Source: Pempheris klunzingeri (taxonomy: Eukaryota; Chordata; Actinopteri; Acropomatiformes; Pempheridae). From it: a DNA stretch of 64,000 nucleotides. Shown here piece after piece: positions 709 to 63,761 of the stretch. Under the pieces are notes generated by a model. The model did no database searches, had not been told where the DNA came from, and was given only the letters and a program-made list of their open reading frames with translations. The position numbers and the translations under genes were made by a program. The stretch is from NCBI RefSeq assembly GCF_042242105.1, contig NC_092026.1, forward strand, positions 20,312,001 to 20,376,000, in the 5' to 3' direction. Position 1 is the first letter of the stretch, and each line of letters begins with the position of its first letter.

Positions 709-3700
709 GTGAGTACATACATGTTTTTAATGCAACTTTAGCGAGCCAACGTGTGTTTACAGGTCTGCAGAGCTCGATTGACTGTTTTGTCTTTGCTAAA
801 GTCAGCCAACAACCATGTTTTGTGGTTGGTTGTGTTGGAGTTTATCGACCTGACCTTAATCTGTCTAAGTTTCTCCATGCATAAAAACACAGTGCAGCAG
901 TCCATAAGTATGTGGACAGTGTTGTTTTATGTTGTACTGGCTCTCTGCCCCAGTATAGATACATTACATAACATACAGTGAACAATGATTGACTTTCAGC
1001 TTTAATTTCAGTGTGCTGTTTACAAACTGTAGTCCTGTTAATATGGCTGTATTATCCAAACAGGTTGCCCCAAGGCAAACATGTGCCACTGGACCCCAAT
1101 TAAAGGGCTAGTTCGGATTATTTGCACTGGGGTTGTAGGAGGCACCTGTCCATTACAGTGCATTGCTGTCACTGCTCTACGTGTAATTTAACGCCCCAGT
1201 TTCTCCTCTTAATGTGATTCTCAAACAGGCAAATCACTAATAGGATCAGTTTTCTTGGAGCAATCATTCTGAATTTTTTACTGTCGCCAGAGTTTCAAGT
1301 CCAGACACGAAACCAGCTTCAAGTCCAGACTTGATATCTGGACATGATGCAGGACTGTGAGATGAGAATTAATAAATGCATCTTTTTGGCCAGGAGGTCA
1401 CCAGTGGATTGTCATAAGGAGACAGATTTATGCTGCTGACTCACAGGTTACGGCAGTGAATGTTTACCGTCTGTTACTCACCCATGTTGAATGAGGCCGG
1501 TTTGTCAGAACAGAAACAACAGCAAGAGATTAGCGTGTTGAGTTTTCTTCCTTTGTGTGTTTTAGATGCATATTAGTTGCTACGTTTGATTTTTCAGATT
1601 TAATTTTTCCTCTTTTTCACTCCACTTGCAGCAAAAAGCAGCGTTATTCGGTGGGATGTTCAAAAGGTCCCCCAAGCCTGCAGAATCATCTGTCCAAGCA
1701 CAGGTGATGAACTATACTATGAACTTTCCTTAAATTTACATCTACAACTTAAAGCTGCAGCAGGCAATTTTTTTAAATATTGTTTAGGGTGAAATAACAA
1801 ATTTCGACCATTGTATATCACTAACAATATTTAAGTGAAGGGTTCCTTTAAAAAAAAAATGTCTTTGAGTTCTCGTCTATTTTGTATTTAGTTTTTAAAA
1901 AAAACTTAACCTGGTCTGAATCGATCTACCAATCAGGATTGGTCAACGTGTAACTAGCCAATCACAGCAACTCTGTACAAAGAAGGGCTTCTGTGGCTAA
2001 CCTGTTGTTAGCCTGGGTATGCGAGCAACAGGTTAGCCATGGAAATGAGTGTATAAACGCCACTGTAGGCAATGGAGGTGTTGGAAATTTACCACGAGTT
2101 GCCATAGTGCTTGAAACTACGTGTATGTGCGACGTGCTCGGCGGTGGTTGCCACAGAAACCCTTGTTTGTACTGAGTCCAGTGTTAAAAATTCTAAATTC
2201 GACATCTTTTTTTATAAAGGAGCCCTGAATATGGTTAGTGACATGAAATGGTCAAAAATTAGTTACTTTAACGAAGATATACTGTTGTCTAGTGCAGCTT
2301 TAATAAGTGAGTTCACTGATTAAAGCCTATCTTATATTATGTTATTACTACAATATTTAACATTAATATTTAAGTTCTTTACCTGTAATCATATTGGTGG
2401 CATGTACAGCAATAAAATTATAAAATAACTTGAAAGAATATAATTTAATTATGGATTTATGATATTCGATTCTGCATCTACTCACATAGACTCTTTGTTG
2501 ACTTTACAGGACAGTTTATCAGCCAGCCGTGAACTTTCAAACAGCAGCGACAGTCTGCCCGACAACACCAAGGTGATGCTCAGAGAGTATTTTTGTAAAT
2601 TCTATGTTGTGTTTTATTTTTCAAACTTTGTTTAAACTCTCTGATCATCACTAATGTAAAATGCAGAAAAAACATTTATTTAACATGCAGGGTGACTTTT
2701 TTTTCTTTTAATATTCCAGGAGAAAGGAGCCGTGTTTAAAGGAATGTTCAAGAAGGCGACGACCAAACCTCCCAAAGAGGACCAGCCACAGGTTTGTAGA
2801 GTTTTTTTTTATTCTCTAAAAGTCTTTTGTAATCACTGTAAAAATTCTGACTAATAGAATGTTAAAGTATGTCTCTCTAAAGTTGTATGAAAATATGCAG
2901 ATGAGATATGACACTGATCTTTCTCTCTAATAGGCCACCCTCTCGTTGCAAAATCCTGAACTGTCTGTCAGTAATGACAGTTTAACGGACAAGTCATCAA
3001 AAGTGAGTTTTCTGGCTTTGTTTTCCCACACAGAGGTTCTTCACGTTATTCTGTGAAACTAAACCTTTCTCTTCACTTTTCTCCTCAGGAAAAATCAGGT
3101 GTGTTTGGTGGAATACTGAAACGATCTCCTAAACCAGGGCACGTCCGGAGGCCTTCACAGGTGAAACACTATCTTCTGTTACATGTTACATGACATGACA
3201 TAAAAAATGTGCCTCAATAAGAGGCTGACAGGTAATCTGGTGTGTTTCAGGATCTTTTGGCCAACGAGGTCACAGCCAGTAACGACAGTCTTTCTGAGAA
3301 AACCTCAACTAAAGTGAGTCTCAGCAGCGAAACCTTTTTTTTTTTCATTGTGAAAAACTTTCAAAAAGCACTAACGACTGAAAACATTTATAGTTTTTAA
3401 TTACTTGTCCCAGTGTGGTAACTGTCTGTGATGCGAGGGTTTTTTCCTCTCAGCTTTGTTGAAATAGAAATAAAGGGTTGAATCTCAAATTGGATTTATA
3501 CTATTGCAGTGGAAAACACATCACTTCATGTGCAACAAAAGCTGCAGTACCAAACAAACAATGGCTTTTGGGTTCAAAACGACTGGTAGGAACAAAAAGT
3601 TTTGGAACTGGTCCAGTATCGTTGATCGTTGGCAGCTGTGAACCGGATACAGCGGCTTTGATGTAATGCTTTGGGGCAATTGCTCCTCATCTAATTACAT

Positions 3701-6700
3701 CCAATAAAAGTGGTTGTTTTTGCCATTGACAGGCTCACATTGTAATTTGAAGTTTCTTAGAATATTACAGAAAGGATCCCTACAGAGATGGAAAATCTTT
3801 TTTGTTTAAACAGAAACAGTTGTTAGTTGATCTAGTTACTGTGATTTATAGAGATTGTTTTAACACAGAACTAGCCCTCTATAACACCAAAGTCACATAA
3901 CAACTCAGACAAACTAACCAATCGAAGCAGCGGTAGACGAGCAGCTCCCGTGTTCTGTGAGGTAACATTACTGTTTTAATCAATTGAGTCTGGTGGCTTT
4001 GAAACAAGAGATATAACAGCTGTTTCTGGTTAAACTAAATGGATTTTGCAGGTCTATCTCTGTAGGGGCCCTTTCCATAATGTTATCAGAAACTGACTAG
4101 CAAGCTGAGCCTGCCAGTGACAAAAACAAACACTCTTTGGCCTAAAGAGTTACATTACATCCATTGTGGCTCATTTATGACTGCCAGCAGAGGCAATCTA
4201 CTGGATCAGTTCCCATTTCAGGCCTAATATATGTTAAAATAGGGCCCAGGTATAAAAATGTTATCCTTTTAAGAGTAGAAACATATTTACAGTATCTGAC
4301 AATAGTTAAGTTCTCCCTTAGTGTTTATTACTAAGGGATTCTGGTGTTATTGAACCTACAGCAGGTGTGTAGGCCTCAACTCAGTGGATGGTGAGTTTTT
4401 GAAAGGTTGTTTTTTGTTTTTGAACACACGAGCTGAACTTGCATGCATCAGCAATTTGGATGCAGTGCGGGCCAGTGTGTGTAGCACTAAATTCCAACCC
4501 GACAGTCTGATTGCTGCATCAGTTCAAATCACATAACAATTACCTTTATTTATTTCAAGTAACATATATATAAGTATAAGTTATTATCTAAATTTTTTCT
4601 CTCAGGAGGCAGGCGGGATGTTCAGTGGGATGTTCAAAAAATCACCAAAGCCGTTGGGAGCAAGGACACAGTCTCAGGTGAGAGTTCTGCATCTCTTGTT
4701 TCAATTTTAGCTGCGTTACATTATCAGGAAATGATGATGATGATGTTGCTTCTCCCTTTCAGGATGACTTGTCTGCACCCAGCGAGCTCTCGGGCAGCAA
4801 AGACAAGCTCTCTGAGAATAACAGCACTAAGGTAAAGTTTGATATTCATCTGCTGCTCATGCTCATTACTCAGTTCTTCTTAACTCAAGGTACAGTCTTA
4901 TTACACCTCTGTTCCTCGTGCATTCACTCCATTGCCCGTTCATCTCATCTTAACTCTATATGACTGACACAGAGAGAGCAGCTTCAGTTCTCAGTTGAAA
5001 GGGCTCTCAGATGGCATATAGCATACCCTTAAACTGAAGTAGATTTATTTTTTAAGGTAAATTTAGGCAGCTACATTTGTTTTACTGCTCCCCGCCTCCA
5101 CAGCAGTAGCGTTAAATTGCTTAGCGCCTGTGTCAGGACTCCTGCCTGCTGCCCGCTGACCACAGTCTATGTAATACACTAATTCTGAGTAAGCACCTCA
5201 TACAACCCCACTACAAATAATCTGAACTATCTCCTTAGTGCTGATTGTGCAGGGTTAAACTTATTGAATGGAGAGTTTGGGAAATGTGTGTGTCTGTTTT
5301 TGTGTTTGTTGGGCAGAATGAGCTGAACCTGCAGGCGTTAGCATTTGGCAGAGGCTGCGTCCTATCCAGCAGCTTAAACCAGAGGAATACTGTAATAAAT
5401 TCCTCCATTTTCAGTTTTCACAAACAATTTCCATGACCTTTTTTTTTTTTTTTTTTTTTTTTTTTATAGGAGACAGGAGGGGTGTTCAGTGGGATGTTTA
5501 AAAAATCCCCAAAGCCTTTCGGAGCAAGGGCACAGTCTCAGGTGAGAGTTGTGTATCTCGCTTGTTTCACTTTCAGCAGTGTTGCATTACCAGGAGATGA
5601 TAATAATAGTCTGTTGGGGACGTTTGTTTCTTGCTTTCAGGATGATTTGTCTGCAGCCAGCGAGCTCTCGGGCAGCAAAGACAATCTTTCTGAGAAAAGC
5701 AACACTAAGGTTTGTTAAAGCAGGGGAATTCTTCAATAAATTCTTCCAATATGGGCAACATTTCACAGACCCTTTTCGTGTGACCTTTTTTTTTTGTTTC
5801 CAGGACACAGGAGGGGTGTTCAGTGGGATGTTTAAAAAACCCGCAAAGCCTTTGGGAGCGAGGACACAATCTCAGGTGAGAGTTATGGAGTTTTGCTGCC
5901 ATTAAACCATTTTACTATACATTATTCGGACAGGATTAATATTAACTAGTTGACATTTGTTTCTCACTTTCAGGATGATCTGTCTGCATCCAGCGAGCTC
6001 TCGGGCAGCAACGACAATCTTGAGAACACTAAGGTGAGGTTTGTTACAGCCAGCCGCCTCAATCCTGAAGTGACACGATACTGCAAGATCAGCCATGACA
6101 GTAAATGTAGTAATATTGAATTCTGGCTTCATATTATTTTCTCAGGACAAAGGAGGAATCTTTAGCGGTGTGTTCAGGAAAAAAGTTGTGAAATCTCAGT
6201 CTCAGGTAAGATTTTAGGGGCATTTTCAGGGGAATTCAGTGGGTTAGTTTTTTAGGCATTAACTTTAAACATTTCTGAATTTGGCACCTCCTCTTTGGTA
6301 GTATAGAAAAAACAGGAATCCTATCTAGGGACACTAAGAACAAAGGGATGAAAGCAACATGTTGACTGAGCTAGTTTTCACCAGCTAAACTAAAATCTAT
6401 ATCTTATAGCTTAGCCTTTTTTTGTAAATGGCGGTTTGATGCCAGTATTTCCCCCCCTGGCTCAGCGTTATGTGGAATTGTCTGACAATAACACCACCTG
6501 ATCATGTTTCACATCACAGACATTCATTTTCAGAGGCGTCTTCCTGGAGCCCTTTCATTTCTGAACATGTTGGCTAACCTGTAACCAGCAGTCTGTTTTG
6601 CACCTATACCTTTAGGTGTTTAAGAAACTTCTGGATATGAAGCTTCATAATGAGAATTTTTTTTTCGTCTCTGTTGTTACATTCTGACTGTGAGCTGTAT

Positions 6701-9700
6701 CCCTCTGTTCAGGATGATTTGTCTGCGGATGGTGAACTCTCTGCCAGCAGTGACGGTCTTGTCGAGAAGCCTTCAAAGGTGAGCGATGGACTCCGACCTG
6801 CTCTGCAACAACACCAAGAGAAACACATAGGAGATAAAATCAGTCTGTAACTTTTTCTCCTTTGACTTTTCTGTCAGGGTGACGTGGCAGCTAAGATCCT
6901 GAAGAATCCTTTCGCCTCCTCGTCACACGTAATTGTTATTTATCTCGCACTTATTCCTGCATCATATACTCTTGTCACGGTCATGGTTTGAGATTGATTG
7001 ATGGTATTGCAACAGGAAAAGGAAAAGACTGAACGCTCAGGGGACTCAAATGAGAACACCTCTACTACAGAAAAGCCCAAACACAAGCAGGTGGGTTGTT
7101 ATGCCAGAGCGACTCAGTCGTTCGATGTCAAGCCGTGAACATCAGCAGTAGGTTCAAAGATCTGCTGTGATGTTAAGGTGAGGGTTAGAGGATGGTAACG
7201 AGTGTCTTTGTGTTATTTCAGAATGGTTTTAGTGCGATGATGAAGAGCACGTTCTACACTGACAAACCGGTAAGAGGCGCCGAATTTTAATCTTGACATT
7301 TGCTGCATGTCATCAGTTCATATTTCCCATCACAGTCCTGTGAAACTAAATAGTATCTAATCCAAGGATGATGTAAAGCTGGTTCTACTACTACTATCGC
7401 TAGTGTTAGTATTTATTTTATATCTAATATTTTACACTATATATTGGCTCCATCTGCAGGAGAAGACCTCTGACTATGAGGAGACACTGGAGAATGGAGA
7501 GCCCAGCCACAAACAGGTCTGTAAGGTGTTTTTCCTCTTAAGTTTCAAACTGCAGTCTAATTTCTGTATGTTTCTGTTATTTTATGCTTTTTTTTTTCTC
7601 TCTATTTGTATTGTTTCATATTCAGAGTAAACTTGCTGGGGCGATGACAAAGTTTAATCTATTTCGATCTGCAAACAAAGTAAGAGAGGTTTAGATTGTA
7701 ATCTTGTGATAGTGCTCAAGAAATAAAGTTTCTTTTGATGAAGGAGAACAGAACGGTCCCATTTATTTTGTGTTTTTCATAAAAGAATGATTTCTGTCTC
7801 CTCTGCAGCATGACAAGCTGCCAGACTCAGATGAAGAAGATCCACCTGCGAGCGGCGAGAAGTCATCAGGCAACAAACAGGTGCTTTGACATTTAATTGT
7901 TCCTCTTTCACTGTTATTTTGTAAGTTTGACGTCAAATTTTTGACATTTAACTAGTTATTGTGGCTCAGCTGTCACGTGCCTTATTGAGAGGTAGAAAAG
8001 CCTCAAAAGTTTCGAAGTTTCAAGTGTTTGGTCCTGCTTAGGTAGAAAAGAGGAAAGTAATGAGTTAAGCTTTTGAGAAGCCTTTTAGCCCCAGGCTTTG
8101 TCTGCAGTCCATCTTAACTTGTCTCAGCTTGTCTTGCTGAGATCGTCATACCTTAAATCTTTCAAGTGACAAAGAAAAACTTCAGATATCTGTTATCAGC
8201 TTGTCTTGCAGACTTGTTTTTTACGCAGACCAGACAAAATTGTTTGTATGCAATATCTGTGTAACAAAGATCAGCAGCCAGACCCAAGTCGGCCCCAACA
8301 ACAACCTGTAGTCCCCCAGGGCAAAAACAATTCCTCAGAAAACTAACTTACATCAGTAGAGAACATGGTACACAATTTATAGTGATGTTAGCAATGTGCA
8401 TGCGTGGTCTCTGTCATTTTAAATGTCTTATCATTAGTCACTGCATTACTGAGTGAAAACAAGCGGCTCAGTTGGGTGTTAGCCTGTGATGCCCTTTGCT
8501 TTTAATAGTGGAGGCTAATAATACTAACAGGCCGTGTTATAAAACTAAATGACAATTCCACTCTCACCAATACTAGATTTATACAGTTAGCACTGATATT
8601 GATGTTTGGGAGTTTAAAAGATCCAATAATGATAGAATCAGATTTTAAAGTTGAACTGAACAAATTATTATTATTTTGTCCACCTTTTATTTATTTAATG
8701 TTTATAAATTACCTCGGAATTAGTTTGGCAGTTTCTGTACTGCAGTTTCTTCTTACTTATATACACCAATACTGATGCTGAACTTTGAGCAGACGCATAA
8801 ATCGCTGTGGGACTTGCTGTAGGGCTGGAGGAGGACACATGATCAACATATCTCCTTATGACATCACAAAGTGAGCCGAATCCAAACGCTCTGTTTTCAC
8901 AAACATTTACTGAAAGATGGAGCAGGAGAGGATGCTGTTAGTTTGGCGGTCTGTAGACACACCAGGGGACACACATTTATGTTAAAAAGGCTTTTAAAAA
9001 TACATTTTGCATAACATGGGACATTAATATTTGAAATGTTGAGGCATTCCCTGAAATCGTTGGATGATGTGTTTCTCCTTGTTAGAGCACAGCGGTAGGA
9101 GCCAAGTCCAAACTGAATCTATTTCGCCCTGCAAATAAAGTAACTATGCTGCTGATTGTGTTTGGTGATGGTGGAGGTGTTTGTGGTAGTGGTCATGATG
9201 ATGGTGATGATGTTTGTAGGGAGTTTTGGTTAATTTTAGGGAGTAGTAAAGGACCATATGAGTGATTGTGCTCATTATACCATATTTACTACAGACTACA
9301 CACACTTCACATCACCATTAACCATTCTACAAACAACCTTGATGTGATTTATGGGGTGTATCTTTCCTACTGTTCTAGGCATCTATTATTTTCCATTTAT
9401 TTTTGTACAATAAAACATCAATACAGGCTCTACGTCGACTGTGATGAAGAACAAAACTCAACCAAATTTCAAGAGTCTTCCACTTGATTTCCGTTCCCCT
9501 CAGAAATGAATGGAAACCAACGGCTGATTGGAATAGTAGACAAATAGTAAACTTCCTGTTCCTGTTTGCTCCTCACTCTGTCTGTCCACAAATGCCCCAG
9601 AAAGAAAGTGGTATGGTCCTTTACTTTTTGGTTAATAAAGTTTAACAACTAGCATTTTATGTCCTGTAATTCAGAAAGACACTGAGGACACAGAGGCGCC

Positions 9701-9783
9701 CAAGGAGAACGAGAAACAAGTGGAAGAGAAGCCGAAAGTGGTCAGTCTATTTTTCACACTCGACACTCGTGAGTCATCAGTGA

Positions 9784-9821
<38 letters not shown>

Positions 9822-12800
9822 CGGATCAACCTCTGTCAAAAATACCTTCTCTCCTCTGGCTCCTCCTCTTCCGTACCTCCACCACGTCCTCCTCATCCCT
9901 TTACCTCCCTTTAAATCCTGCCTGCTCGTTGTCAAACCCCCCTCTCCTCCTGCTCCACTACACTGTGTGACTGTGTGTGTGTGTGTGTGTGTGTCCTTGT
10001 CAGGTCAAAAGCAACATGATCCAGCAAGAGAGGAAGGAAAGAAGTGAAACTCTACTGGTTCAACGCAGACCAACTGAAGAGGTTTGCAATGATATGAACA
10101 CGACTCCACTCAGTGACATGTCGGCCCGGTAAGACTGTGGTGACTTCTGCTGCCTGTTATGTTGTGTTGTTAAAGCTGCGATCTGTCCACAGGAGGTGAA
10201 GGGGACATCCACGTACAACAGAGTAAAACCAAGAGGAGCTGAGGATAATCAGGTACAGCTAACACTTCTCAGATTGTGAGAATGATATGTGGGATATTTC
10301 TACCTAGTGAGTTTTGGAATTGGGGATTAATAAAGTATATTGATTGATTGATTGAATGATTACATTTATGTACTGTGCTATTACATTTCATACTTTGTAT
10401 ACACGCAAAAGGTATCATAAGGATGTCAGCTGTAGAAGAAATGTCTTCATTTTGTCGTCAGCAGGATTACAAGGACATGACCTCCACGGAGAAAAAAGCT
10501 AAATCTACAGAAACTCCTGCAGTCTCTGCCAGACCTTCAGAGGAGGTAGTTTGAGCCGTCGGTGTTTAGTGAATAGTGGCTGTTTGATTCAGTTTGGAGC
10601 TGATGTGTATCAACTGCTGGTTTATTATCTCTGTGATAAAACAAACTGCTCTGGTTTAATTTCAGGAGCTGAACAGAGCAGCGAGACGTGATGTGCAAAA
10701 GCAGAAGAGCCACCTGCAGGTACTGGCGTGTGCACACAGTGTAAAGGTTAGATTGTTAGATCGATGTGTCGGTTTTAGGATATTTTTGGACGACTGTTGG
10801 CTGCTCATTAGATATAGGTTATAAACTAAAGGCTTTAATGGAGGTCTCTTTGTGACCCCAGCTATTAAAAAGGTAAAACTTTAAAGTCCCCTTTAGTCAA
10901 AAATGTGTTCTGTTTATTGTTACGTTGAGGATGAACCTGCACTGTGCAGAGAGATGTTGGTGTAGAGTTCGACACTGTTCACATTCACTTTCATCTGCTG
11001 AGGAGGGAAATTTTCTCTTTTCTCACATTAAATCTGAGTTAAAGACGCGTGTGTACGACCAGGATTTGGAAGCTTGTTGTGGTTCAATATAAGTGTGTGT
11101 GTGGAAACTTGAAACCTGCAGTGCACGGACACTATTGATGAACTTTTCAGTGAAGTTGGAGACATCTTCTGTCTCTGAATGGAAACAGATCGGACACAAA
11201 ATATCATTCCAAGAGTTTTTTTGTTCATAAAAAACATGTTCAGAGGGAATATTAATAATACAATAATGGTACAACATTCCTTTCTAATTCGAAAGCTGTT
11301 ATTAAGTTATTTCCACTTAAAAGAAATCCAGCTCTGAGGAACCCTGAACAGTTGTCATTTCGGGCATAAAAATGGTCTAATTTGTAGATTGAATACGGTA
11401 ATATCACGCATTCAAATACTTTGCTGAAAAATACAGTAAGTTTGATTAAAATCTAATTTGTTTAATTTGCTGCAGAGCCACTCAGACGACAAAGGCCTCA
11501 AAAAAGACGAATCTGCTGAAGCCAAAGAGGGAGACGAGACAAACACTCCAGAAAGCAGGACAGTAAGTTGATCAGTGTGGGTCAGACCATATTATTTACT
11601 AATCCTCAGTATTGGTCAGACGGGTGTAGAGACTGATTATATGTGTGTATTTGTGAGTCTGAGTATGTTTTTTTTTTTTGCTGGTTTCTAAATCAGCTGT
11701 GTGTAATCTGAGTCATCATCTGCTGCAGATGAAAACAAACACAGAGAATATTTCCTGCAAGTATTCTGCCAGGATCTAATTGTTCTAGTTCCTGCTTCCT
11801 TCTTATCAGTTCTTTAATGCTGGAGCTATTCAAATGACATGTCGCACCTTCGGGCCATTTTCAGCGCGAGATCAGCATGTGAAAGCTCATGTTTATCACG
11901 TTACTCAAAAGGCAATTTAAGCCTTTAACATAGAGTTTTGGATTGTTTTTGCCGAAGTTCTATGACTACTGTAACATCCATGGAGCACAAGTGCAGTTAT
12001 TTCATTCAGGTTTAGGTTTTAAATCACCAACGGCTGCAATGAAATGTAGTTCCTCCAGTTATTGTTTTTCATGTGACCTAACTTTTGTTGTCATTGTGCC
12101 ATTTTTTTTTTTTTGAACAGACCAAGGTGAAAAAACACAAGCACCATAATCCATTTATGCCACGTGTTGCAGCCAAGGTATGATTTGTTTAGTGATTACA
12201 ACATTTCTCTTTTTTGCAACAATCTCAGTTGATCATACATGGTACTTAAAGTAAAACATTATACCCTCAGTTTGACAAATTAAAAATTAAAATTAAATTA
12301 AATGTCATTTCTATTTTAAATAGGAAACAATGTGTTAGTTTTTCCTTAGTACTTATTTAGGTCATTGTTACGTTTACACTCTGATTGTTGTTCACTTCAG
12401 GCTCCATCTGACGATGAAGGGCTAAACGAAGAAGAGGATTCTTCATCCAAAGAGGAAAAGAAAGACGAGGAAGGCAAAGACAAAACAGAGGAGGTTATTT
12501 TTTATCTTGTTTCCTTCCTGTTTGTTGATTAAACAGTTCATGGTTTCATTTTTACAATGATGGTCATCTGGAAGGTTTTAACGTAATTACTGCTAAAGAA
12601 ACATTTCAGAGTTTGACCTTTATCTTTCCTCAGAGTAACACTGAAATCCTGTTTTTTTTCCTCTTCTTTTTAGGCTAAAGTAAAGAAACCTAAAAGACAC
12701 AATCCCTTCATGCCTCGGGTCAAGGTAACATTCAAACATGTGACATAAAGGAACTTGTTTCCTCATGTGTGGACAATACTACTCAACAACACAGCCAAAA

Positions 12801-18880: not shown

Positions 18881-18889
18881 ATACAGCAA

Positions 18890-19117
18890 ATCTCTTGAGG
18901 CTGATGAGACTTTGGAGACTGCTGAGATTTGGGAGCTTCGTTGGTGCTCCTGAACGCCTCACGGGTGCAGATGTTGTTGAGGCTGCGGGTGTGGTGAAGT
19001 TTTAAAATGTCCTGGGAATGTGGTGACAGTGAGCGCCGTCACTTTAACCTTTTCTTTTGGTGATTTTTGACTCAAAGTGGAGCTGAAGTTTCTCTGAATC
19101 ACCTTCAAATCTTCTCG
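18890..19117 (+). other. Candidate non-coding first exon of gene 2
   Basis: The first coding exon of gene 2 at 21244 starts with an AG acceptor five nt before the ATG, so an upstream 5' UTR exon must exist. The best donor is CTTCTCG|GTAGGT at 19117, downstream of relatively GC-rich sequence at about 18890-19110. The start is unknown. This is inference from splice signals alone. Confidence 0.35.
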
Positions 19118-20934: not shown

Positions 20935-21248
20935 GCATTAACTTTTGAATCTGTGGTGAATCTGTGGAAAGAAAGCTCGCTGATTTTATGCTGTGTTCAC
21001 GTCATATTGGTTGGTTCATGAAGATGTTCAAGACCTGCGAGCTTTGCAAGTTGTAATTAAAGGTAGATGTTATCATTGTTGTGTTGAGTACACCTTTTCC
21101 TGTTCTTGCATGTCAACAGGTATGCTGTGAAGAGCTAGTGGAAGTTTGTCTCTTACTTCCGTCTGATCTAGTTTACATTCAAACAGCCATTCAAAATGGA
21201 GATGCTCCGATCACAAACCACCATCTTTTTGTCACTCTTACAGGCAGG

Positions 21249-21582
21249 ATGGAGGCGTGTATGTTAAAGCCAGAAGTAAAAAAGAAACCAAAGCCGGTGA
21301 GAACTTTTACAGTCCGCATTAAAACCCTAATCTAATGCACACCACGCTCTGACTACTCCTCAGCACTGATTCTTTACAGCTGTGTTTCCTTTATCCACTG
21401 GTCTGCATGTTTTAGATGTTTCCCTGCTCAAACACATCTGAATCAAATCAATCGCTCACTGTCAGGCTTGTGCAGCTGATCATGTAAATAATATGTAGGG
21501 CAGTGGGCCCCCAGGACCATGGGTGGAAAACACTCTTGTGCAGTATAGAACTACAAAACTGTACTCGGCAGAGTGCAAATAT

Positions 21583-21614
<32 letters not shown>

Positions 21615-24168: not shown

Positions 24169-24220
<52 letters not shown>

Positions 24221-26701: not shown

Positions 26702-29700
26702 GTAAGAGATTAACAACAATAACTCCTGACTGCCTCTGCTCATGTTAACAAACCAGGTCTGCCTTTTCCAAACAACATCATGATTCAATCACTGCTGTGT
26801 GCTAAATAAGTGATTGAAAACGGAATATTCAAAAAGTAAATGTATTCTTTGCAAAATAAGATTACTTTAAAAGCTGTCAAATGAAAACCAGCAAGCACAC
26901 TTTTCTTTTCTTTTTAATGAACAAAGAAAAACTCTACATTGAAACATTATTCTGTGTTTTTAGTAGACTTTTGTGTAGACTTCAAATGCCAGCTAACTTA
27001 AAGGAAGCTTGTCATTAGATGTTCACATTTTATTTTTTTCTCCACCTTTCGTTCAGGACATAGGATCTCTGTTTTCTGGAATGTTCCGTAAAACTCCCAA
27101 AGAGACGATGCCGTCTCCTTCAGTGGCGGTAACGTCAACGCCTCTTCTCATTTTCTGATCATAAATGTTCACTTTGTGTCTCATGTTGCCTCTTACGAGT
27201 TGTTTTCTTCCTTACCAGGTCAGGAAAGCAGACAGCGATCCTGAAGATACAGAAGGAGCAGAAGAGAAAAGTTCTGAACGATCTCACGTGCGTCTTGTTT
27301 TAGTAGCTTTAGAAGGTGTACTTCAATCTAATGACCGATCCACATGTAAAATGTTTTTAATGACTATTAGTCGCCTGTCTCACATAGCAGTAACATCAAT
27401 CAGTGCTTAATCACATCATCAAAGGATCTCCAACCTGCTTCAAGTCAATTTTTTTTCTATCCTGCACTTGTGAAGCTTAATCTCACCGTACAGATGTTGT
27501 ACTTAAAAATTCAGCCACATTTTTAGTGGACTGTGAACAGATGCATCCACTTCTGAGATGTTTTGTGCACCGTCCTTAAAGTTGGCCGGGAATCTGTTTT
27601 GTGTTTCCGTATTCGTATTATCACAAACATATAATTTAAAAAAAGAAAAGTGTTCATCATTACATGTTGCACCGCACATTTCTTTACAGGAAAAGGGAGG
27701 CTTCTTCTCTGGCATCCTTAAAAAACCCCATAAAACAACAGATGAGACACCTGCACAGGTGAGTGACAAAAATGGCTTGAAAATCCAAAAAAGTTAAAAG
27801 TTAATGTGTCTCTCTTTTTGTGTGAGTTTTTAAAATTATATCATGTTGGTGTTTCAGGAGAATCTGAGTGCTTCTAGCGAGCTGTCTGCCAGCACTGACA
27901 GTCTGTCTGAAAAAAACAAGGTGAGCAGCTTTGTGTCATAGAACCTGCTGCTGTGATAGCACAGATTAAGTCTAACATCTTTAATTACAGTGTACACACA
28001 GACTAGTAGATTATCCTGCAATTGGGCCCCTCACTGACCTAACCTTCACCAAAACACACCTTCCATAACTGAGCATGTGCCTGCTATTCTTGTGCCTCTT
28101 TCAGGAGAAAGGAGGGATATTCAGCGGGATGTTCAGGAAGTCTCCGAAACCAACAGAAGCTGCTCAAACTGACGAGGTGATGTAGCCACTAAAACATGAC
28201 AGATTTATGTGTTACAACAGGAGTAGCTTAATTCATTATGTAACTATGCAAACAACACCATACAGGTCATATGATAAGTTTAATCCAGTGGGCTGATGAT
28301 GATACTGAGCTAGTTTACTTTGTGTTTTAGGACCAACACTCTCTACAAGGTAGTCTGTCAGGCAGTAATGACAATCTGTCTGAAAACTCAAAGGTGAGAT
28401 CAGAAGTTTTCACCTGTCAAGGATTTAACTGCATCACAATCATTATCATTATGTGATAGTCTCTCATTGTGTGAATTCATTTGTCTGATGTCACCAGGAG
28501 AAAGGAGGGTTTTTCAGCGGGATCCTCCGAAAGTCTCCAAAGATTCCTGCAGAGGGAATACCTGAGCAGGTGAGAACTTTTTTACACATACTTTGGACGC
28601 TCTAATCATAGCTGAAAATGTGCGGCAGCCTGTCACAGACTTTCAGACATCTATGTTTTTAGCCTATAAGAAAAAGTGAATTCAGGTGAACATAGAGGAT
28701 CAAATATCAGAGAGTAAACTTTATTCTGAGGAGGAAAGAAAGTGGCCAAGTGACTAACAAAATTAAAAGTCAACAGATCTGTTTCCTAGTTTGTCTCTCA
28801 GCATCATTTTTTTAACAACAGACTGAAACCCTGTCTGGTCACTTAATGTGTATCATGTCCAAAATTGGGTTTTTTTTCCTTAGATTTTGCCATGCGACAA
28901 ACTGTTAGTACTCTACACAGAAGTCTCCATATAATGTGAAGTGAATATTGAATGATTGAATTGAGTGATTGAGACACAACCCAACTCCTCATTTGAAGCA
29001 CTGAAGCTTTGTTCCTCGACTAGAAACTCAATGTATCACAGTTTATTGTTAATGCAGGCCTGAATAAAAAGATTCATAACATTTTAACACAATCATTATT
29101 TTGTTCCTGTCATTTTTAACCGGAGGAAGAGAGTTTGAATAAGTGCTTTGTTGTGGTCTGTTTTACACTTCTTCTTCCTGGGTATTACAGCATATCATTT
29201 AACACTGGATATACTGTAATATAACATTAGTTAGCTGCTGAGTAACGTGTTGATCCAGCTTTAGCCCACATGCTGTACAATGTTCTTGAACCTTTGAAAA
29301 ACCATACCTGCTCCACCAAATAGAATGAAACTTGTGATGAACTGTGTGAATCTGGCAGAGGTTTTCATTTATTTCATCTTTGTTTCAGGATAAACAGTCA
29401 CTGCAGTTGGACCCATCAGACAGTAATGACACTCTGCCTGAGAACAACACCACTAAAGTAAGGAACCCGCAATTACTGGGATGAAGAAGGGGCTGAATCT
29501 TATATTTATTTTGAAAAGTGCAAGTTGAGCCCAATCTGTGATGTAAATAAGCTTTGATGGAAAAAATGAAATAGAATATAGATCTGGGTCAGGAAAAAAG
29601 CTAAAGACCCACCCTAGAGGCTCCCAAGACAATCATAATGCCTTCAGCAAAGAAAAAAAAAAGTAACATAATCCTGCCCCTTCTCTTGCCCCTTTTTTTA

Positions 29701-32700
29701 CCCCATCTTGCAAATTCATTGAGAACTTTTAGTGGGCACAAAGCATTCTCACAAATCAACCATTACCTCAAACACACAAAGAAGAGGTTCTGACTGTGAG
29801 TTGTTTTTTTATGTAGCTGGAGAAAGGAAGTATTTTCAGTGGCATGTTCAAGAAATCTCCCAAACTTTCAGAAGCCCCACGACTGGAAGAGGTAAAACAT
29901 TTACACACCTAATGTCACTTTTCATGCCTTGAATCTTTGTCACTTTGTCTTAGTATAGACATCAGTGGACGCTAAGGCTGCTGAAGTCTTACTGGACTCT
30001 GAAGTACATCTATTTAAATGCCCCATTAAAAAATGCATTTTGCATAATACAGGACCTTTTCACTTTTATCTTCAACTTAGATAATAGCATACTTTTTTAC
30101 TCCAATGTTAGTGCTTGTGTTTGGCATTTATTTCTTTTTGTTTTTCTGTGGTGTGTGGTTTGTTCGTGTAGCTTCTATCTGTCCATCATCCAGTCAAGGA
30201 CTTCATCATTTCTTTACTGTATAAATCTGTTGAAAATAGTCCCAAATAAATCTGTTTGCTTTCTTGCAACAGTGGGTCTTCTCTCCAAATGTTCTACAAA
30301 GAAATTCCCTAAATAGGTTTTTTTAATGCACCATTTGATAGATTTTAATGAAAATATATGTTAGGTGTTTTGTTGGGAAATCTAAATAACCGACCAGCTG
30401 CTTGTAAATGCAGATTGTAGAGTAATCACATTATGCAGCACATGTACACACATTCCTCTTACTCCTTTCTTTAACCCTTCGGAGTCTAGGACCGCCACAC
30501 GGCGTCAAAGTCACATGTCGCACGTTTGAAAACGTAAAGCTGTGACACAAGCACGCAGGTGCTCAATTCAAAGACTGTTGGAAAGCGGACACTTCAAACT
30601 TTTTACAAGTGTTTGAATTTTGTCAATCGGCCTATTAAGACTAAATTTATGAAGAGCCGAAGTCGCGCACTACAGCTCTTCTACGAGTTAGAAGATGCTG
30701 AATCTGGGGAAGAACGTTCTGATTCTGAGGAAGACTCCTTTCAGAGGATGAAGTGGATGCTGCGCGTGAAGACGAAAGAGAGGAGGTGTCCGCGCAGACC
30801 CCCACTCCTCCAAAGATCCAACTAGTTCCTACTCGGATTTTGTGTTTCTTTTGCACTTTTACATACAGTGTGTCCATATATTATGTCAAAATAAATAAAT
30901 ACTTGTAGAATCACATAGGTGAGGTTGTGCTGAAAAGAAAGACACAAAGAAAGGCAAGCTAAGCAGTTTTAATGGGAAACACAAAGGTAAAATGAAATGT
31001 AGTAAAAAACGCCGTTTTACCCCAGACTCTGAAGGGTTAACCTGCTGTGTTTCAGTGACTGGTTTCAGTGCCAGTGTTCATGTTCAGCCTTCTTGCACAG
31101 GTTGAGTAACATTTTTGTCATGTTCAGGGAGCAGAGATGTTACACAGCCGCGAGCTCTCTGCCAGCACTGACAGCCTGAACAAGGTGAGCCTTCATGATA
31201 GATGTGACAGTTCCTCCCCACTGAAACTACATGAGTCACCATGACTAACATAACAAAACAAGCATGAGCTGAAATATCTACATCTTCATAGGTGGAACCT
31301 TCCTAATTCTGAAATTAAAGGAAACAAGTCGTCAGTTTGCTTGAACATTTTTTTTCTGTTTCTCTGTAGGAGCAGGGCAGTTTGTTCAGTGGACTCCTCA
31401 AAAAGACTCCCAAAACACCTGGAGAGGTACAGCTTCTCAAACACAAATGTGGTTTCCAGCTGTCACAACGCTGGTTTGTGGGGTGTCGTTTTCTCTCCAT
31501 TTGAATTTTGGCACACAAAATGACACATGACGTTAGACCCAGCAGGCTGTAATGTTTTGTATGTATTTCAGCTTAAAGTTATTTTTAGAGAATGTAAATC
31601 TCTTTCCCCTCCCTCTCACTCAATAATATGGTGCGTTGTTTGTATTTGGAGATGATTATGAGATATATTATACTCCTTGTGATGGAAATCTCTGATGGAA
31701 AGATAGAAAACACAAAAGAACAGATGCTACTTATGCCACAAAATCAGAAATATTAACATTCTGCTTGACAGCGGATGGGGTGTGGATGGGTGAAATAATA
31801 CATCATTAATGGGGAAATTATCATCAGTGATCACAGCAGAAACGATATGTGTGTCTCTCCATTAAGAGAGATTTGTGCACATTTAAGCTCGAAGCACAGC
31901 AGTGTCAAGGATTATTTAAATCTCCAGACATGCCGACAAGATTCATGATTCTGCTTCTCCTGAGATTTTTGTCTGTCCTGTCAAGTCTTTTACAAGAGTT
32001 TCTAGTTTTACTGCTTTAGTGTTTCACAATATTGGACATGACAATTACTGAAAGCATTTTGTGTAATCTTAAAAGTAAATGCATCAATATAACTCACAAC
32101 AAAGAAATTAAATGAAAAGCTCATGCTGCTCCACATAATTTAAAAGGCAATATAGCCTACAGGGACCAATAGTGTTGGAAATGTCCCTTTTCTCAATAAA
32201 TCAGACTAAACAATAGATTTGGGTGGGTGGCAGGTGGATGATTTATGCATGCATGTGGATTTGGATCTTGTCAAGGCCAATCCGGGCATCACTACTCTGC
32301 TGTGCCTTTTCCAACACTTACAAGCTGTAAATAGATGATCTAGGTTGCTGCTTGATTATCAGCTAATAGAGATTCAGCGTCATTCCTACCACCTCGTCTG
32401 TAGCCTGTGTAGTTCTGAGTGTTTTTATCTTTTCTCAGGAGAGGCAGTCAGAAGACGACAAGCTCTCAGGCAGCAGAGAAGCTCTGTATGAGAACAGCAC
32501 CAAGGTTGGGTTTTTTTTTAATGCATTTACATTTAGAAACATTCCTGAATAACTTAAAGAGAGAGCCCTCATCTCCTGAATGTGCATGTTGTAGGAAAAA
32601 GGAGGAATATTTAGTGGAATGTTCAAGAAGGCTCCCAAACAAGCAGAAGCTGCTCAACACGAGGAGGTAAAAATATAATTATCGATCTGTTTCTATGAAA

Positions 32701-35700
32701 TATAACTCTTTACCCTTGTATTTCTACCTTTTTTTTAAAAAATAATATTTAAGTTGAAGGAACGTAAGGAATAGAGAAACATACAAATACAATGCAAATG
32801 GAAATGATTGTGCCCTCTCTCCGCCCCTTCCCAACAAAAAAATGAATGAATAAATAAATAATGAAACAAAACAAAATATTACAGTAGCATAATGTCACTG
32901 ATAACAATTACAAGATGGACTAAAAAGTAAAAAATAAAAGTAATCTCATAAATATTAAGCTCAGATACATCAAGTACAAAAGTACCATGTTCAGATGAAG
33001 TATAAGTTGTAACTTCTATTTATATAAGTCACACTTTGTGATATCATGTCATTCTTTTTATCAACAGACAAGTCCCATATATCCCATTAACAAATAAACA
33101 AATAATACACGTGGTGTTGCTGGGAGGCACTGCAAGTCAGTCAAAATAAGATGAGGGGCTGCCTGGTAGAGTAAAATGTATTTTTATTCTCAGCATTTGA
33201 GCGATGCTTAGAAGTCCTTTATGATAACATTTAAACTGTAAATCCTCATTATCGGTTTGTAGCAAGACATCAGAAGCTTGTTTCCAGATTTCTATGCAAA
33301 TCCAGAGGAAAATTATGAATAAAGTGGTCAGTTGAAAATCTAAATCAAATTCAGTATATCCCATGATAGTCTATTACATTGTGTTTATAAATTGAAAACT
33401 TACCCACATTAATATTTTATTATTTATCATTTGTTCCATTGTAAAATAGAAATATCACTCACATTACTAGAAACATTTATCAACTTTATTTTAATATTCC
33501 CAGCTAATATTGACTTGTTACCACCTAATCGCATTTTACAGGTCCAGTCTCCCGACAACAAGCTTTCATCCAGTAACGAGAGTTTATCTGAGAACAAACC
33601 GGTCAGTGAGTCAAAATCCAAGATGATAAATGGCTTTTCAACAAAAAACAGCAGTTTGATAAATATTTTTTAATCCCCAAATGCTTTTCTATTCTGTTTC
33701 TTGTGTCCATCAGGAGAAAGGGTTGTTCAGCGGACTCCTCAAAAAGACTAAAGCGTCTGGAGAAAGGACAGACTCACCGGTGAGTGAGTGTTTTCTGGAT
33801 GTGCACTGTTTCTGTGCCTCTATACAATTTCACCTGTTTTATATAACATCAGTTTTCTGTTTCAGGACAGAGAAGCTCAGAAAGAGCTGTTGGCCAGCAA
33901 CGACGACTTGTCTGAGAATAATAACGCTAAGGTGAGCAGTGTAGCACAACAAAAACTTAAACGAAGAGTTTGAATTTTTTTGAAGTGGGGTTGTATGAGG
34001 TACTTATCACTCATCAGTGTATTACAGTGATGATGCAGAGTAACACAAACAAACTAACTGATCAAGGTAGTGATAGACCTTAATCAGTGTCGTTTAAAAG
34101 GTAAAATTACTGTTTTTGTCAATGGAATCTGCTCTAGGTTATACACAGCCTATGGAAGTATGTCCTACAACCCCACTTTAAAAAATCCATACTATCCCTT
34201 TTAAATATCTCGAAACAGCTTTTTCTGATACCAAATTTTTTTCCAGGAGAAAAATATTTTCAGCAACATGTTTAAGAAGCCGCAGATACCAGCAGATGGC
34301 GCTGCAGTGGACAAGGTGCTGTCATTTGATTAAACTGATAAAATTAAATTAAATTATGGAGGACGGAGCAAATGTTTATCTACTGTTTTGTGGTTTGAAT
34401 TCAGGAGCTTGTGGTGAGCAGTGAAAATCGATTATCTGGTAGCTGTGAGAATCTGTCTGACGCCACCATCCCAAAGGTACCTCAGTCTTTCTTTGTCTGT
34501 CTCACTGTGGCCGCTGTCCTCATGTCAACATGAACTGAAACCTGATCACAGGGATCACATTGTGTTATCTGATGATATCTTTGTGTTTGTCCTGTCTTTG
34601 TTCCTCCTGCATTTGGCTTTATTTAAATCTGCACGTAATAAGAATAATAAAGAATAATAGATATGAAGTGCATCACACAAGACAAATGAATAAAAACAAG
34701 CAAAATGTTTAATGAACGACATTAAACTAACCAACACCTTTGTTTATTTCCTGAGGTGTTTCCATTAATCATCATTATAATTTCAACATGCCATAAATAC
34801 ACTGTGGAGTTTTACTTTTGTTTCTGAATGTTTTCTTTTTTATTTTCGATGAATAACAAATGTCTGTGTTTTAGGAGAAAAAAGGAGGCCTGGCTGGCAT
34901 CTTCAAAAGATCAGCCAGCGTCGAGAACCTGTTTGACGAGGTCAGTGTGGGCAGCGCTCGCTGCAGGTTTAAGGCACCTTGGGGAGGCACGTGACAGTAA
35001 TTCTCCTTAGTAATGACAGTCTGTTTGAAAACAGCAGCACTAAGGTACTGTGTTGTTTAAATGGTGTTTTTCATCCAAAAATTGGATCGTCAGCACTATG
35101 AAATATTAATAAATGTTTGCTGGTTCTTTAAGAACATTAAAATAATGTTACATTTTATAATATTACTTACTTCGTTTAGTTTTTTTTTTTATTCATCCTT
35201 TACCGAAAAATCTATAAAATTTCAACATGCTAGACCTGTTTTTATTTTACTCTTGATTCTAACACATTAAAGAGTCGCCTGGTGTAGTTTCACTTGTACA
35301 GATTATGTCTGTGTTTAATGTTTTTCAGGAGAAAAGTATTTTTGGTGGCATGTTTAAGAAGACTCATAAACCAGCAGAGGGGAGTACAACAGATGAGGTG
35401 CAGTAATGAGCCGTTCACACAAAGTTTGCAGAGTATCACACCACTGTCCTGTTCTTTGTATTTGTTTTATTTTCTGTTGTGTGTGTTCAGGAATTAAACA
35501 CAGACAACGATAAGAAGTTATCTGTCAGTTGTGAAAATCTGTTAGAAGCAACCACGTCAAAGGTATGATGCTGTCCAACGACCACAGTCTCTCTCTGCTG
35601 TTGATTATTGATTATTAACTCTTATGTGAACGTTTCTCATGTTTCAGGAGAAGACTGGAGGTCTGGCAGGGATCTTCAAAAAGTCTCCCAAACCAGCGCC

Positions 35701-38700
35701 GCGCTCCATTGCCACTCAGGTAACCAAATAATCTAATTTAATGTTGTTTTATTTTGTTTTTGTGGTAATTTGTATGGCTACCAGTAATTCAGTTGTCTGT
35801 AAAAGCCCTGATTTACATTTGCAAGCTAATCATATTGTGAAATAACGTTTTGTAAGTTAACACAAATATTACTGCCCACAAAATGTTAAGGTTCCTTTTT
35901 GTTCTCCAGGATCCACTCACAAAGCAGCTGTCCACCAGCTATGACAGCCTCACAGAGGTGAGAGCTACTCAAAGTTTGACCATGCTTCCAACACTACAGT
36001 GCTGTAGTGTATTTTCATGTGTATTTTTCTGCCAGCAAAAATGTTTAATGTTTTTGAGCACATTCAGAACACAAAGCCAAGGTTGATGACCAAAAACATC
36101 CCATCTGGAGAAACAAAGGCTTTTGTTTTATCCTCTAGAACAGGGGTGCCCAATACGTCGATGGCGATCGACCGGTCGATCGCGAAGGCAGTGCGGGTAG
36201 ATTGCGTGACATTAAAAAAAATAGATTTTAGTCCATCATCTGTCATCCCTAAGTAGGACTAAGCGGTTTAGAAAATGAATGAAGGAACGTATGTAATGAA
36301 TCGCGTTTGCGACTTGATTGACGTACAGGGCGGACAGTCTGAGATCTCTTCTCTGCTACGGGTCCCCGGCAGGGACATGCGCGGTCAAACGCACTAGCTA
36401 CTGCAAGACTCCAGCTTTAGCCTTCCAGTTTATATCTACTAAAGAAAGGATGTTCTGGGATAGGGAACAGGATAGGAAGGGATATTTGACTCCGTTCAGA
36501 GTAAGTGGAGTAACAATAAAAATTAACCCAGGAAAAAGAAGCAACTGTGTCAAACCAAATTAGGAATTCATTAACAAACTCAAAAGTAATTTACTTACAT
36601 CAGCCACCAAACAACAAAAAACAAGCTTTCCTTAAAAAGTGGAAAAAGTCAGTCTAGATTTTAAAACCGTTCAAACGACAAGTCGGAGTCAAAATGACTG
36701 ATTCCGGTAAACAACAGCTCGAGTACATTAAAGACTCAGCACACATGCAGCCTGAGCGCTGTGTAGCCTCGTCTGTTTCCACCAGGCTCCTAATCTTAAC
36801 CACCCACAGCTGGTAGGAAGGAGGAGGGGCAACAAAGGGGTAGAAACATTACAGCCACAACCCTCTGCACACCAATGTCTAGTGAAATTTTGCAATATTT
36901 AAGCCAAGCCAAGCTGTCTTCTTTCTCTGGATTCTCTCCAGCAAACATTTAAATTACATTTTAAATTCCACTATTTGCAGTTTTTACTTTTAAACATCTA
37001 AGTGGATTTTTAACCCTCAGACTTTAGACTTTAAGGACAATAACCTCACCCAAAGGTTTCAGTGATAATAACTCATAACACTAAAATAAAACAAGAATTA
37101 ACTTTCTTTTAAATTTCAAAGGATGGTCTTGGTAAATGGTCGACTAGTAACGAGAATCTTCTTGAAGCCACCACAAAGGTAAGTCTTGTAGACTATTATT
37201 CTGTTTGAGTTTTTCGTATCTTTTTCATATTCTTTTTAGATTATCTGTATCATCGTATTTTCACCTTTTTTGTGTATATGAATGGGTAATGTTTTATCTC
37301 TTTAACAGGATAAAAAAGGAGGATTTGGTGGGATTTTCAGGAGGACGCCCAAAACAGCTGAACATCAGGTACAATTTTATCAGCACTGAAAAGCATGAAA
37401 TGTATTTACCAACACACGTTTAAGTTGTATTGTCAGTTATAGTTAGAAAAATAGACCTACAGCAGTTGTAGAGTGAAGTAGGGCTAATCAGGAATGTGTT
37501 TTTTGAATAATTTTCTATCTAGAAGTGTTAACAGTGAAGCAACTGAAGACTAAATAAATACATATCTGAATACATAAATATGTTCAATTATTTGATTAGC
37601 ATGTTATTATATTTGGCAGTTTTGCTTTCTGTCTCCAACACAGATTTGACATTTTGAAAACTGAAAAAACCAAATGTGTAGTGCTATAATAGGCATGCAT
37701 ATGAAGAATTAAGGTTTCAAGCCAGGTAGACGACCCCTATATCCTGTGCAGTTGTTAGGCAGGTATCCCAGCAGCTAAGTCTCTGTCTTCATTCACAGGA
37801 AAATGAGGACATGCAGGCACCAGAGGGAGGCGGGCTGAGACGCAGGAGAACCATCAAGAGAAAAAGACGGGTGAGTTGTTGTTCACTTTAAAGAAGCATC
37901 CAGAGACGTGGCAGGAAACCGCAGGAGTGAGAACCAAAGTGTCTTTCAACAACTAGACCACAAGGTCGTCTGTATATCATCAGATGTCTCTGTATACAGG
38001 GTGCCAACATGAATCAGCAAGTTAAGTTTAAGGCTTTTTAAGAGTTTTTAATACCCCAGTTTAGTTTAAGGCCAATTTTGTCATAAGAATAGACATCAGA
38101 TTTAAAGACAATTAAAGCTGCAAGCAGCGTTGGAGGGCCCTCGCACCTCCGTGCACGTCGTGGCGTGCGGCGGCTCCGTCCTGTTGCTGGAACATCAGTG
38201 CTTCTCTTCTACAGCTGACTCAATCAGATATAACAGCTGTTTGTGGTTAAACCAAAAGGATCCTCCAGGTCTCTCTCTGTAGGGATCCTTTCCATGATGC
38301 TGTCACACACTTAGAATAACACTCTGAGCCTGTCAGTGGATCAAACAAGCACTTTTAGTGGACCTACTGTGATCAGGTGCAGTTGGCAGTCGACTGAGGC
38401 AAACTGGACCAATTTTTTATTTTTTTTTTAAAGTTCCACTTTAATGTCTGACTGAGCTGCAGTGAAACGAGGAAAGCTTCAGTGTGACTGCAGGATTAGT
38501 TGGTTCTGTCATGAGGAAACCAGCTGGAGGTTCCTGCAGGGAGACTCTGACCCATGTGACAACGTGACACCTCTTCGCTTCACACCGTCGCATACTAAGA
38601 GCAGAAGATGGGCCGCATCACATGACACATGCGTACATCCTGATCACACACCTGAACACAACACAAGCTGATTTTTAATGCTGCAGTAGGAAATATTACA

Positions 38701-53165: not shown

Positions 53166-53215
<50 letters not shown>

Positions 53216-56743: not shown

Positions 56744-56834
<91 letters not shown>

Positions 56835-60422: not shown

Positions 60423-63761
<3,339 letters not shown>

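Follow-up and report, generated by a model that had tools for sequence, protein, structure and literature searches.

Apolipoprotein L genes and the locus analyzed

Long trains of small symmetric exons are known, e.g., from elastin, the PEVK region of titin, and the micro-exon genes of schistosomes; elastin alternates two module types, and its exon phase differs from the phase 0-0 of the arrays considered below. NPF and DPF motifs, in turn, are found in endocytic adaptors and accessory proteins such as Eps15, epsin, and Dab2. The present analysis concerns a stretch of 64,000 nucleotides (nt) from the fish Pempheris klunzingeri (contig NC_092026.1, positions 20,312,001 to 20,376,000 of the forward strand; hereafter, the window), which harbors two adjacent genes of the apolipoprotein L (ApoL) family, referred to as gene 1 and gene 2. 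In their N-terminal parts, short exons of a hydrophobic/basic type (A) alternate with acidic Ser-rich ones (B). As judged from the sequence, the arrangement noticed in the original prediction is real and reaches beyond what was claimed there; the mechanism suggested below is a testable proposal.

APOLs have been reviewed as membrane-remodelling hairpin proteins, with murine APOL7C acting at phagosomes (PMC11726835). Zebrafish was taken to have one APOL (PMC4854397, PMC4492502), and three APOL3 genes lie in a linkage block of cod (PMC5374575). No account of such arrays was met in the fish apolipoprotein L literature as far as titles and abstract openings go, most subscription papers lying outside the coverage.

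Organization of the two genes

The exon models of both genes were built by hand, guided by splice sites, by similarity to the modules, and by the reading frame staying open, and the start codons were likewise inferred by hand. Gene 1 (484-15694) comprises 37 coding exons for 1072 amino acids, and gene 2 (21249-44970) comprises 44 coding exons for 1587, each in a single uninterrupted frame; both lie on the + strand, with the mini-exon train at the start and the ApoL domain at the end. Their prediction as two ApoL paralogues is borne out by Pfam, since PF05461 was detected in gene 1 (127 bits, E 1.3e-36) and in two exons of gene 2 (78.3 and 34.8 bits, E 8.9e-22 and 1.6e-8), all above the curated cut-off of 25.9.

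All internal exons 5' of a characteristic exon encoding LMEWW are multiples of 3 and of phase 0-0 (33/33 in gene 1, 39/39 in gene 2), and all introns are of the GT-AG type (36/36 and 43/43). Frame 0 is open in 72 of the 72 mini-exons, frames 1 and 2 in 44 and 12 of them, respectively; as a control, segments with matching lengths were taken at random from introns, and 1469 out of 5000 were open. Dozens of phase 0-0 exons of 48-105 nt had been predicted: the phase held throughout, and the size range turned out to be 27-105 nt (median exon 66 nt), four mini-exons being shorter than 48 nt (27, 42, 45, and 45 nt) and the LMEWW exons measuring 40 nt. The phase 0-0 layout permits alternative splicing, no more than that. 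The predicted span, 1632..37368, runs from the first to the last A exon, whereas the genes themselves reach 484 and 44970. The features are as follows.

484..708, + strand: start of gene 1 (open frame and splice sites; start codon inferred), with ATG 484-486 as the last codon of exon 1; next exon 655-708 (DRYNNLDLDLDCDGGGVA).
1632..6778, + strand: strict A/B array of gene 1, 14 alternating exons (exon models, profiles, charge); A exons 1632-1703, 2720-2791, 3089-3160, 4606-4677, 5470-5541, 5804-5875, 6146-6205; B exons 2510-2572, 2934-3002, 3251-3313, 4763-4831, 5641-5709, 5974-6033, 6713-6778.
6878..9740, + strand: alternation in gene 1 carried on with other motifs (exon model, charge per exon, motif count); basic-type exons 6878-6928 (KNPF), 7222-7269, 7626-7679 (NLF), 9086-9139 (NLF); acidic-type exons 7016-7090 (net charge 0), 7460-7516, 7809-7880, 9675-9740.
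10004..13681, + strand: further phase-0 mini-exons of gene 1 (exon model, motif count), including HNPFMPR modules 12121-12177 and 12674-12724 with the acidic exon 12401-12493 between them.
13800..14338, + strand: LMEWW exon of gene 1, 13800-13839 (end phase 1), then exon 14287-14338 (end phase 2).
14734..15694, + strand: ApoL domain of gene 1 in one exon (Pfam match as above).
21249..24339, + strand: start (codon inferred) and N-terminal Pro/basic mini-exons of gene 2 (exon model), 21249-21296, 22309-22335, 22477-22545, 23097-23141, 23766-23843, 24109-24168, 24289-24339.
24430..37368, + strand: array of gene 2 (exon models, profiles, charge); A exons 24430-24486, 27057-27128, 27690-27758, 28105-28176, 28498-28569, 29817-29891, 31370-31426, 32595-32666, 33714-33779, 34247-34315, 34875-34940, 35329-35397, 35648-35719, 37309-37368; B exons 27858-27920, 28331-28393, 29389-29457, 31128-31184, 32439-32504, 33542-33601, 33866-33931, 34405-34476, 35491-35562, 35910-35957, 37122-37178; looser modules 25265-25342, 25622-25672, 26597-26701, 27219-27287.
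35009..35044, + strand: B module, probably a relic (SNDSLFENSSTK), flanked by an A exon on either side and with no splice acceptor in frame (by eye; below threshold in the profile scan).
37799..41726, + strand: linker exons of gene 2, 37799-37870, 39488-39532, 39884-39949, 40590-40664; LMEWW exon 41465-41504; then exon 41675-41726.
42571..44970, + strand: ApoL domain of gene 2 in two exons, 42571-42985 and 43294-44970 (Pfam matches as above), with a long Lys/Glu/Arg-rich C-terminal tail.

The latter tail (about 400 Lys/Glu/Arg-rich residues, 43730-44967, in the last exon) is encoded by a purine-rich strand with skews of about 0.2.

The ApoL domain of gene 1 was also compared with other collections. 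Against the PDB, four weak matches were obtained (best E 0.14), all to components of alpha-helical pore-forming toxins, and against NCBIfam a stretch of MakA (E 9.5e-7, 28 bits versus a cut-off of 320); both were taken as likeness of hydrophobic stretches.

A and B modules

Twenty-one exons (7 in gene 1, 14 in gene 2) belong to the strict A class with the hydrophobic/basic motif GGxFSGMFKKSPKP, and 18 (7 and 11) to the strict B class with the acidic Ser-rich motif ELSxSxDSLSEN. The A consensus, EKGGxFSGMFKKxPK, was obtained from 20 of the 21 exons after exclusion of the most divergent one (24430-24486), and the B core, approximately ELSxSxDSLSEN, from 16 of the 18 (35910-35957 and 37122-37178 excluded). 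The modules of one gene are recognized by profiles trained on the other, although this test is not wholly independent because the alignments that supplied its columns had pooled the two genes: the A profile of gene 1 gave 13 matches in the gene 2 region and recovered 12 of the 14 A exons there, that of gene 2 recovered all seven in gene 1, and the B profiles recovered 7/11 exons in gene 2 and 6/7 in gene 1. There were no matches on the reverse strand or on the + strand of the window at 46-64 kb, and none in ten dinucleotide shuffles per test, except two single ones for the B profile trained on gene 2. A scan ignoring splice sites revealed no further module above threshold, with 39/39 matches inside called exons. 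When an A-B-A stretch of gene 2 in spliced form was used as the query, it scored in this window only (8/8 scored places in the 646-Mb genome, i.e., at least that many), and neither profile had a match in the PDB up to E 10.

The predicted alternation of A and B is strict over the 14 exons of gene 1, beyond which it continues through other motifs. Two breaks are seen in gene 2, one made by two A exons in succession (34875/35329), with the relic B read by eye between them, and one by two B exons (35910/37122). Along with the motifs, the net charge alternates exon by exon, with lag-1 values of -0.83 and -0.70 in the arrays of genes 1 and 2. No exon-order shuffle out of 20,000 reached this in either gene when the array only was considered, a test chosen after the result for the whole N-terminal part had been seen; for the latter, the shuffles reaching the observed value numbered 0 in gene 1, 3187 in gene 2, and 747 and 6292 in two related genes described next, c23g1 and c23g2 (of 20,000 each).

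A second pair and other ApoL loci

Across the genome, PF05461 has 13 matches, on C15, C23, C17, C9, and C3, which may be read as about 11 ApoL loci; in four of these, trains of mini-exons make up the N-terminal part. On C23, an ApoL pair stands in the same gene order as that of the window; its hand-inferred models comprise 37 exons and 1400 residues in c23g1 and 20 exons and 667 residues in c23g2. The Gly/Ala-rich hydrophobic stretch of the ApoL region is conserved in all four genes, and the LMEWW exon is common to gene 1, gene 2, and c23g1, c23g2 having LLAWW. The C23 copy of gene 2, c23g2, was also seen to end shortly past the ApoL domain, unlike gene 2 with its tail. Internal mini-exons are of phase 0 in 31/31 and 15/15 cases in c23g1 and c23g2, a count that excludes start exons and a single exon of 1140 nt.

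The modules of the C23 pair are of a different kind: the A/B profiles found no A there and two weak B, both exons in c23g2. Four modules of c23g2, the full set of this kind, share GxxxGxxxKVNPFK, and a query with this NPF module scored on C23 only (3/3 scored places, again a minimum). In c23g1, the 1140-nt exon (C23:5062000-5063139), rich in DPF and [DE]LF with NPF, is similar to the tail of an endocytic adaptor; it is followed by Pro-rich exons and then by basic modules among acidic ones, three of the basic modules ending in CKP.

The identities of the ApoL regions pair up (255/323 for gene 2 and c23g2, 142/282 for gene 1 and c23g1, 37-41% for the other pairs), and neighbors of both pairs match as well. 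Downstream of gene 2, a + strand gene (51898-57667) encodes a DOMON-like domain (Pfam E 1.2e-5, under its cut-off), and for one of its exons a match of 79 residues with 35% identity (E 7e-11) lies close to the C23 pair. A minus-strand gene at 60430-63760 resembles hnRNP C/RALY, although one exon of it gave no relevant match in Pfam; an exon of this hnRNP C-like gene has its best other match at C23:5122551, with 90% identity across 39 residues and at a distance of some 57 kb from c23g1. A translated search (tblastn) with the open reading frames of 46-64 kb also returned one 43-residue match on C17 (E 1.4e-4). The window and C23 pairs thus appear to be block duplicates with some rearrangement, the likely source being the teleost whole-genome duplication. 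In sequence comparison, the ApoL domain is conserved while the array motif and module number have turned over, as in the pair of gene 2 and c23g2 (79%).

At the regions of C9, C17 (two places), and C3, the A/B profiles found no A and no B. Among these loci on C9, C17 (3.9 and 11.56 Mb), and C3, the upstream reading for mini-exons covered C3 and C17 at 11.56 Mb. Shorter ApoL genes with a few phase-0, partly Pro-rich exons were seen at C3:4796800-4798100 and C17:11560000-11563700; upstream of ApoL at C17 11.56 Mb there are a few phase-0 candidates, some of them Pro-rich, and no array, and the C3 gene has, by eye, an LLDWW exon. Perhaps these short genes represent the ancestral form from which the arrays arose.

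Linear motifs and the proposed mechanism

Short linear motifs were counted in the whole N-terminal part of each gene, with expectations from residue shuffles; since the lists of motifs and moments were chosen after the sequences had been read, the shuffle counts are descriptive. NPF occurs three times in gene 1 (0.08 expected) and four times in c23g2 (0.03 expected), in both cases with 0/2000 shuffles reaching the count. In c23g1, there are four DPF (0.35 expected) and nine [DE]LF (0.48 expected; 0/2000 shuffles each) along with two NPF (0.14 expected; 13/2000 shuffles). Gene 2 lacks NPF, DPF, and [DE]LF in its N-terminal part and is rich in [ST]P[KR] (8 versus 1.78 expected) and PxxP (12 versus 4.23); PxxP and RxxS-type sites are close to expectation in gene 1 and c23g2, and the RxxS-type also in gene 2. 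The helical moment exceeds the within-peptide shuffle mean in 19/21 A modules (mean z +0.82) and in 5/18 B modules (mean z -0.22). [ST]P sites number 16, in 14/21 A modules, versus 5.7 expected, a count reached in 0/2000 shuffles. LIR-like motifs (LC3-interacting region, [WFY]xx[LIV]) were considered for A as well and found unconvincing (7/21 modules versus 3.4 expected, 102/2000 shuffles).

The original prediction envisaged a multivalent motif scaffold fused to a membrane-active domain. The domain and multi-module tails on the disordered side are there, and A is not the sole motif: NPF, DPF, [DE]LF, and basic modules occur in the C23 pair and in the later modules of gene 1, and these suggest a link with the network of endocytic adaptors more than a scaffold of a generic sort. 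Our best explanation, advanced tentatively, is that the arrays are disordered multivalent tails which would tether the ApoL membrane domain to membranes and adaptors of the endocytic type. With the same reserve, its evolutionary part holds that an N-terminal pair of exons, A as the hydrophobic/basic module and B as the acidic Ser-rich spacer, may have been multiplied as phase-0 units in the two ApoL genes.

Each array would form a disordered, alternately charged tail, with A modules as short amphipathic or adaptor-docking motifs. In the window genes, these could make phosphorylatable basic-hydrophobic membrane contacts, with Ser/Thr-Pro beside Lys-Lys; a phospho-switchable contact is suggested because the helical moment, Lys-Lys, and frequent Ser/Thr-Pro fit it. 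In c23g2, the modules in the A position would be NPF ligands of EH-domain proteins, and the DPF, [DE]LF, and NPF motifs of c23g1 may dock to AP-2 and EH domains. EH domains bind NPF, MICAL-L1 and Rabenosyn-5 being such ligands of EHD1; EHD1 favors motifs flanked by acidic residues, and its EH domain carries more positive charge than EH-2 of Eps15 (PMC13282721). The NPFK modules would therefore more likely suit EH domains of the Eps15 type. Many weak contacts could keep the membrane domain on endosome- or phagosome-type membranes, the likely site in view of the review of APOL remodelling and of APOL7C at phagosomes (PMC11726835), where the domain would remodel or permeabilize the membrane; how strongly and where the protein is held would then depend on how many modules there are and of which type, and perhaps on the choice of exons.

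Several findings weigh against this proposal. None of the 21 strict A modules contains NPF, which leaves the A/B arrays unexplained by binding to EH domains, and NPF followed by Lys suits EHD proteins poorly, given their preference for acidic flanks (PMC13282721). FxDxF, another AP-2 motif, is absent from all four tails, and a CK2 switch in B was rejected, as CK2-like sites are fewer than by chance (13 versus 19.2 in shuffles). The array charge alternation is modest in c23g1 (539/20,000 shuffles) and not significant in c23g2 (2027/20,000). Comparison of the A and NPF profiles aligned GxFxGMxxK with an E of 0.003 and a probability of 10%, hence a common origin of the two is suggested, no firmer. 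In pairs of low divergence, the ratio of nonsynonymous to synonymous difference proportions (pN/pS) over the whole exon is mildly below 1 (0.77 for A, 29/210 pairs; 0.86 for B, 39/153). The AlphaFold2 model of the gene 1 ApoL domain from two sequences had a mean predicted confidence (pLDDT) of 41 and was discarded as too poor to judge a hairpin. Scans with an ApoL query of viral contigs (19 pattern matches) and of prokaryote genome contigs (97) confirmed none, neither collection being meant for fish.

Turnover of the modules and alternative explanations

Three other explanations are unlikely in our judgment. According to one of them, the arrays are un- or weakly selected products of exon-intron duplication, i.e., spacers lengthening a disordered tail and alike mainly through recent copying. 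Such copies do exist in gene 1: A exons 4606, 5470, and 5804 are close, the pair 5470/5804 having pS 0.12 and pN 0.09, and of 16 same-type intron pairs in this stretch one passed the score cut, with 53/64 aligned bases alike. Modules were apparently lost as well as gained, since gene 2 seems to have dropped some, as the relic B at 35009-35044 and the two successive B exons (35910, 37122) suggest; one A module may have been lost in the intron 36120-37100 between the latter. In this intron, a palindrome-like stretch (about 36160-36185) looks like a transposon end. The low-divergence ratios of 0.77-0.86 also fit weak selection. The A modules, however, are not uniformly variable: over all 210 pairs of the 21 exons, pN is 0.283 versus pS 0.849 in the nine core columns (ratio 0.33) and 0.622 versus 0.705 in the tail (0.88), which, as uncorrected proportions on a protein-guided alignment, shows a contrast and not an exact strength. 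By this comparison, the core is better conserved than the tail. The intact frame in 72/72 mini-exons with GT-AG introns, the alternation retained in both genes, and the endocytic-type motifs far over expectation in three of the four genes also argue against mere duplication. Overall, the repeat number looks evolvable, judging by closely similar neighboring copies in gene 1, the alike intron pair, the relic module, and the differing C23 arrays, which agrees with the tunable number predicted originally.

Improbable to a similar degree is a phase-separating scaffold, in which basic and acidic blocks form a polyampholyte that undergoes condensation, with the ApoL part as the membrane anchor of the condensate. 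The exon-by-exon charge alternation in both window genes (0/20,000 shuffles each), the balance of K+R against D+E (124/125 and 141/145), and the position of the tails on the disordered side of the charge-hydropathy boundary would suit it. Against this stand the shortness of the charge blocks (median exon 66 nt), their weakness in gene 2 (mostly +1, -2), and the conserved FSGMF core, superfluous for a pure charge pattern.

We likewise give little credence to a tail shaped by an immune arms race, a decoy or recognition surface altered fast by gain and loss of modules under pathogen selection. The array motif and number differ between gene 2 and c23g2 in spite of the 79% identity of their ApoL regions, as this explanation would have it. 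Possible further hints come from stickleback, where two adjacent APOL genes, at most putative orthologues of those in the window, lie within a putative balancing-selection peak (PMC2829049) and where the copy-number signal of APOL2, a gene of 27 kb and likewise no more than a putative orthologue, includes introns (PMC4159527), and from the rapid APOL evolution in primates cited in the stickleback literature. A link to the stickleback interval through synteny with SHARPIN, named there, was tried and is unsupported, as SHARPIN matches C21 at 9.94 Mb and C15 at 10.58 Mb, away from the window.

An artefact of the gene models, with arrays composed of pseudo-exons or arisen by chance and with many called exons missing from mRNA, is highly improbable, even though the exons were called by hand from the sequence, in the face of the cross-gene profile test with its controls, the 72/72 open frames with GT-AG introns, and the same build at the independent C23 locus.

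Significance

APOL biology rests mainly on primate and mouse genes, and here about 11 ApoL loci, four with mini-exon trains, are found in one fish. If it is the tails that direct ApoL to endosomes or phagosomes, a direct route is open to what decides the target membrane of an ApoL. They would also illustrate clearly how a multivalent tail of linear motifs evolves via exon-pair duplication with the partner domain fixed, and raise the question of whether signals of copy number and diversity in fish APOL could partly reflect changes within an array. A wider and rather doubtful extension is that one branch of fish ApoL consists of endocytic-network effectors, their membrane-permeabilizing or -remodelling domain being directed by a multivalent tail that is encoded in exons and evolvable. 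Such a tail would have switched between NPF/DPF adaptor motifs and a new FSGMFKK-type motif for membranes or partners once the block had been duplicated, and would be tuned through splicing and the number of modules.

Comparison with known systems

The window genes share with Apolipoprotein L (PF05461; human APOL1-6) the C-terminal ApoL domain with its Gly/Ala-rich hydrophobic stretch, above the Pfam cut-off in both. Human APOL1 has seven exons (PMC12248677) versus 37 and 44 coding exons here, hence the predicted contrast with mammalian APOL stands for this gene. In the window genes, 33 and 39 phase-0 mini-exons with repeated modules, together with the LMEWW exon, precede the domain.

Gene 1 and the C23 genes resemble endocytic adaptors in having tails of a disordered type with repeated NPF, DPF, or [DE]LF. 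The tails here differ in being fused to an ApoL domain: in c23g1, Pfam detected ApoL only and no folded adaptor domain (one 28-residue exon was outside the query), and gene 2 lacks all three motifs. With elastin, titin PEVK, and the schistosome micro-exon genes, the likeness lies in the train of small symmetric exons; those encode different proteins, with no membrane domain. Finally, the A modules are similar to MARCKS-type effector domains as short Lys-rich segments with Phe and Ser, with the potential to attach to acidic lipid and to lose this ability on phosphorylation, lipid binding being predicted here from composition and moment; they differ in their shortness, in their repetition (as many as 14 copies in one gene), and in the acidic spacers between them.

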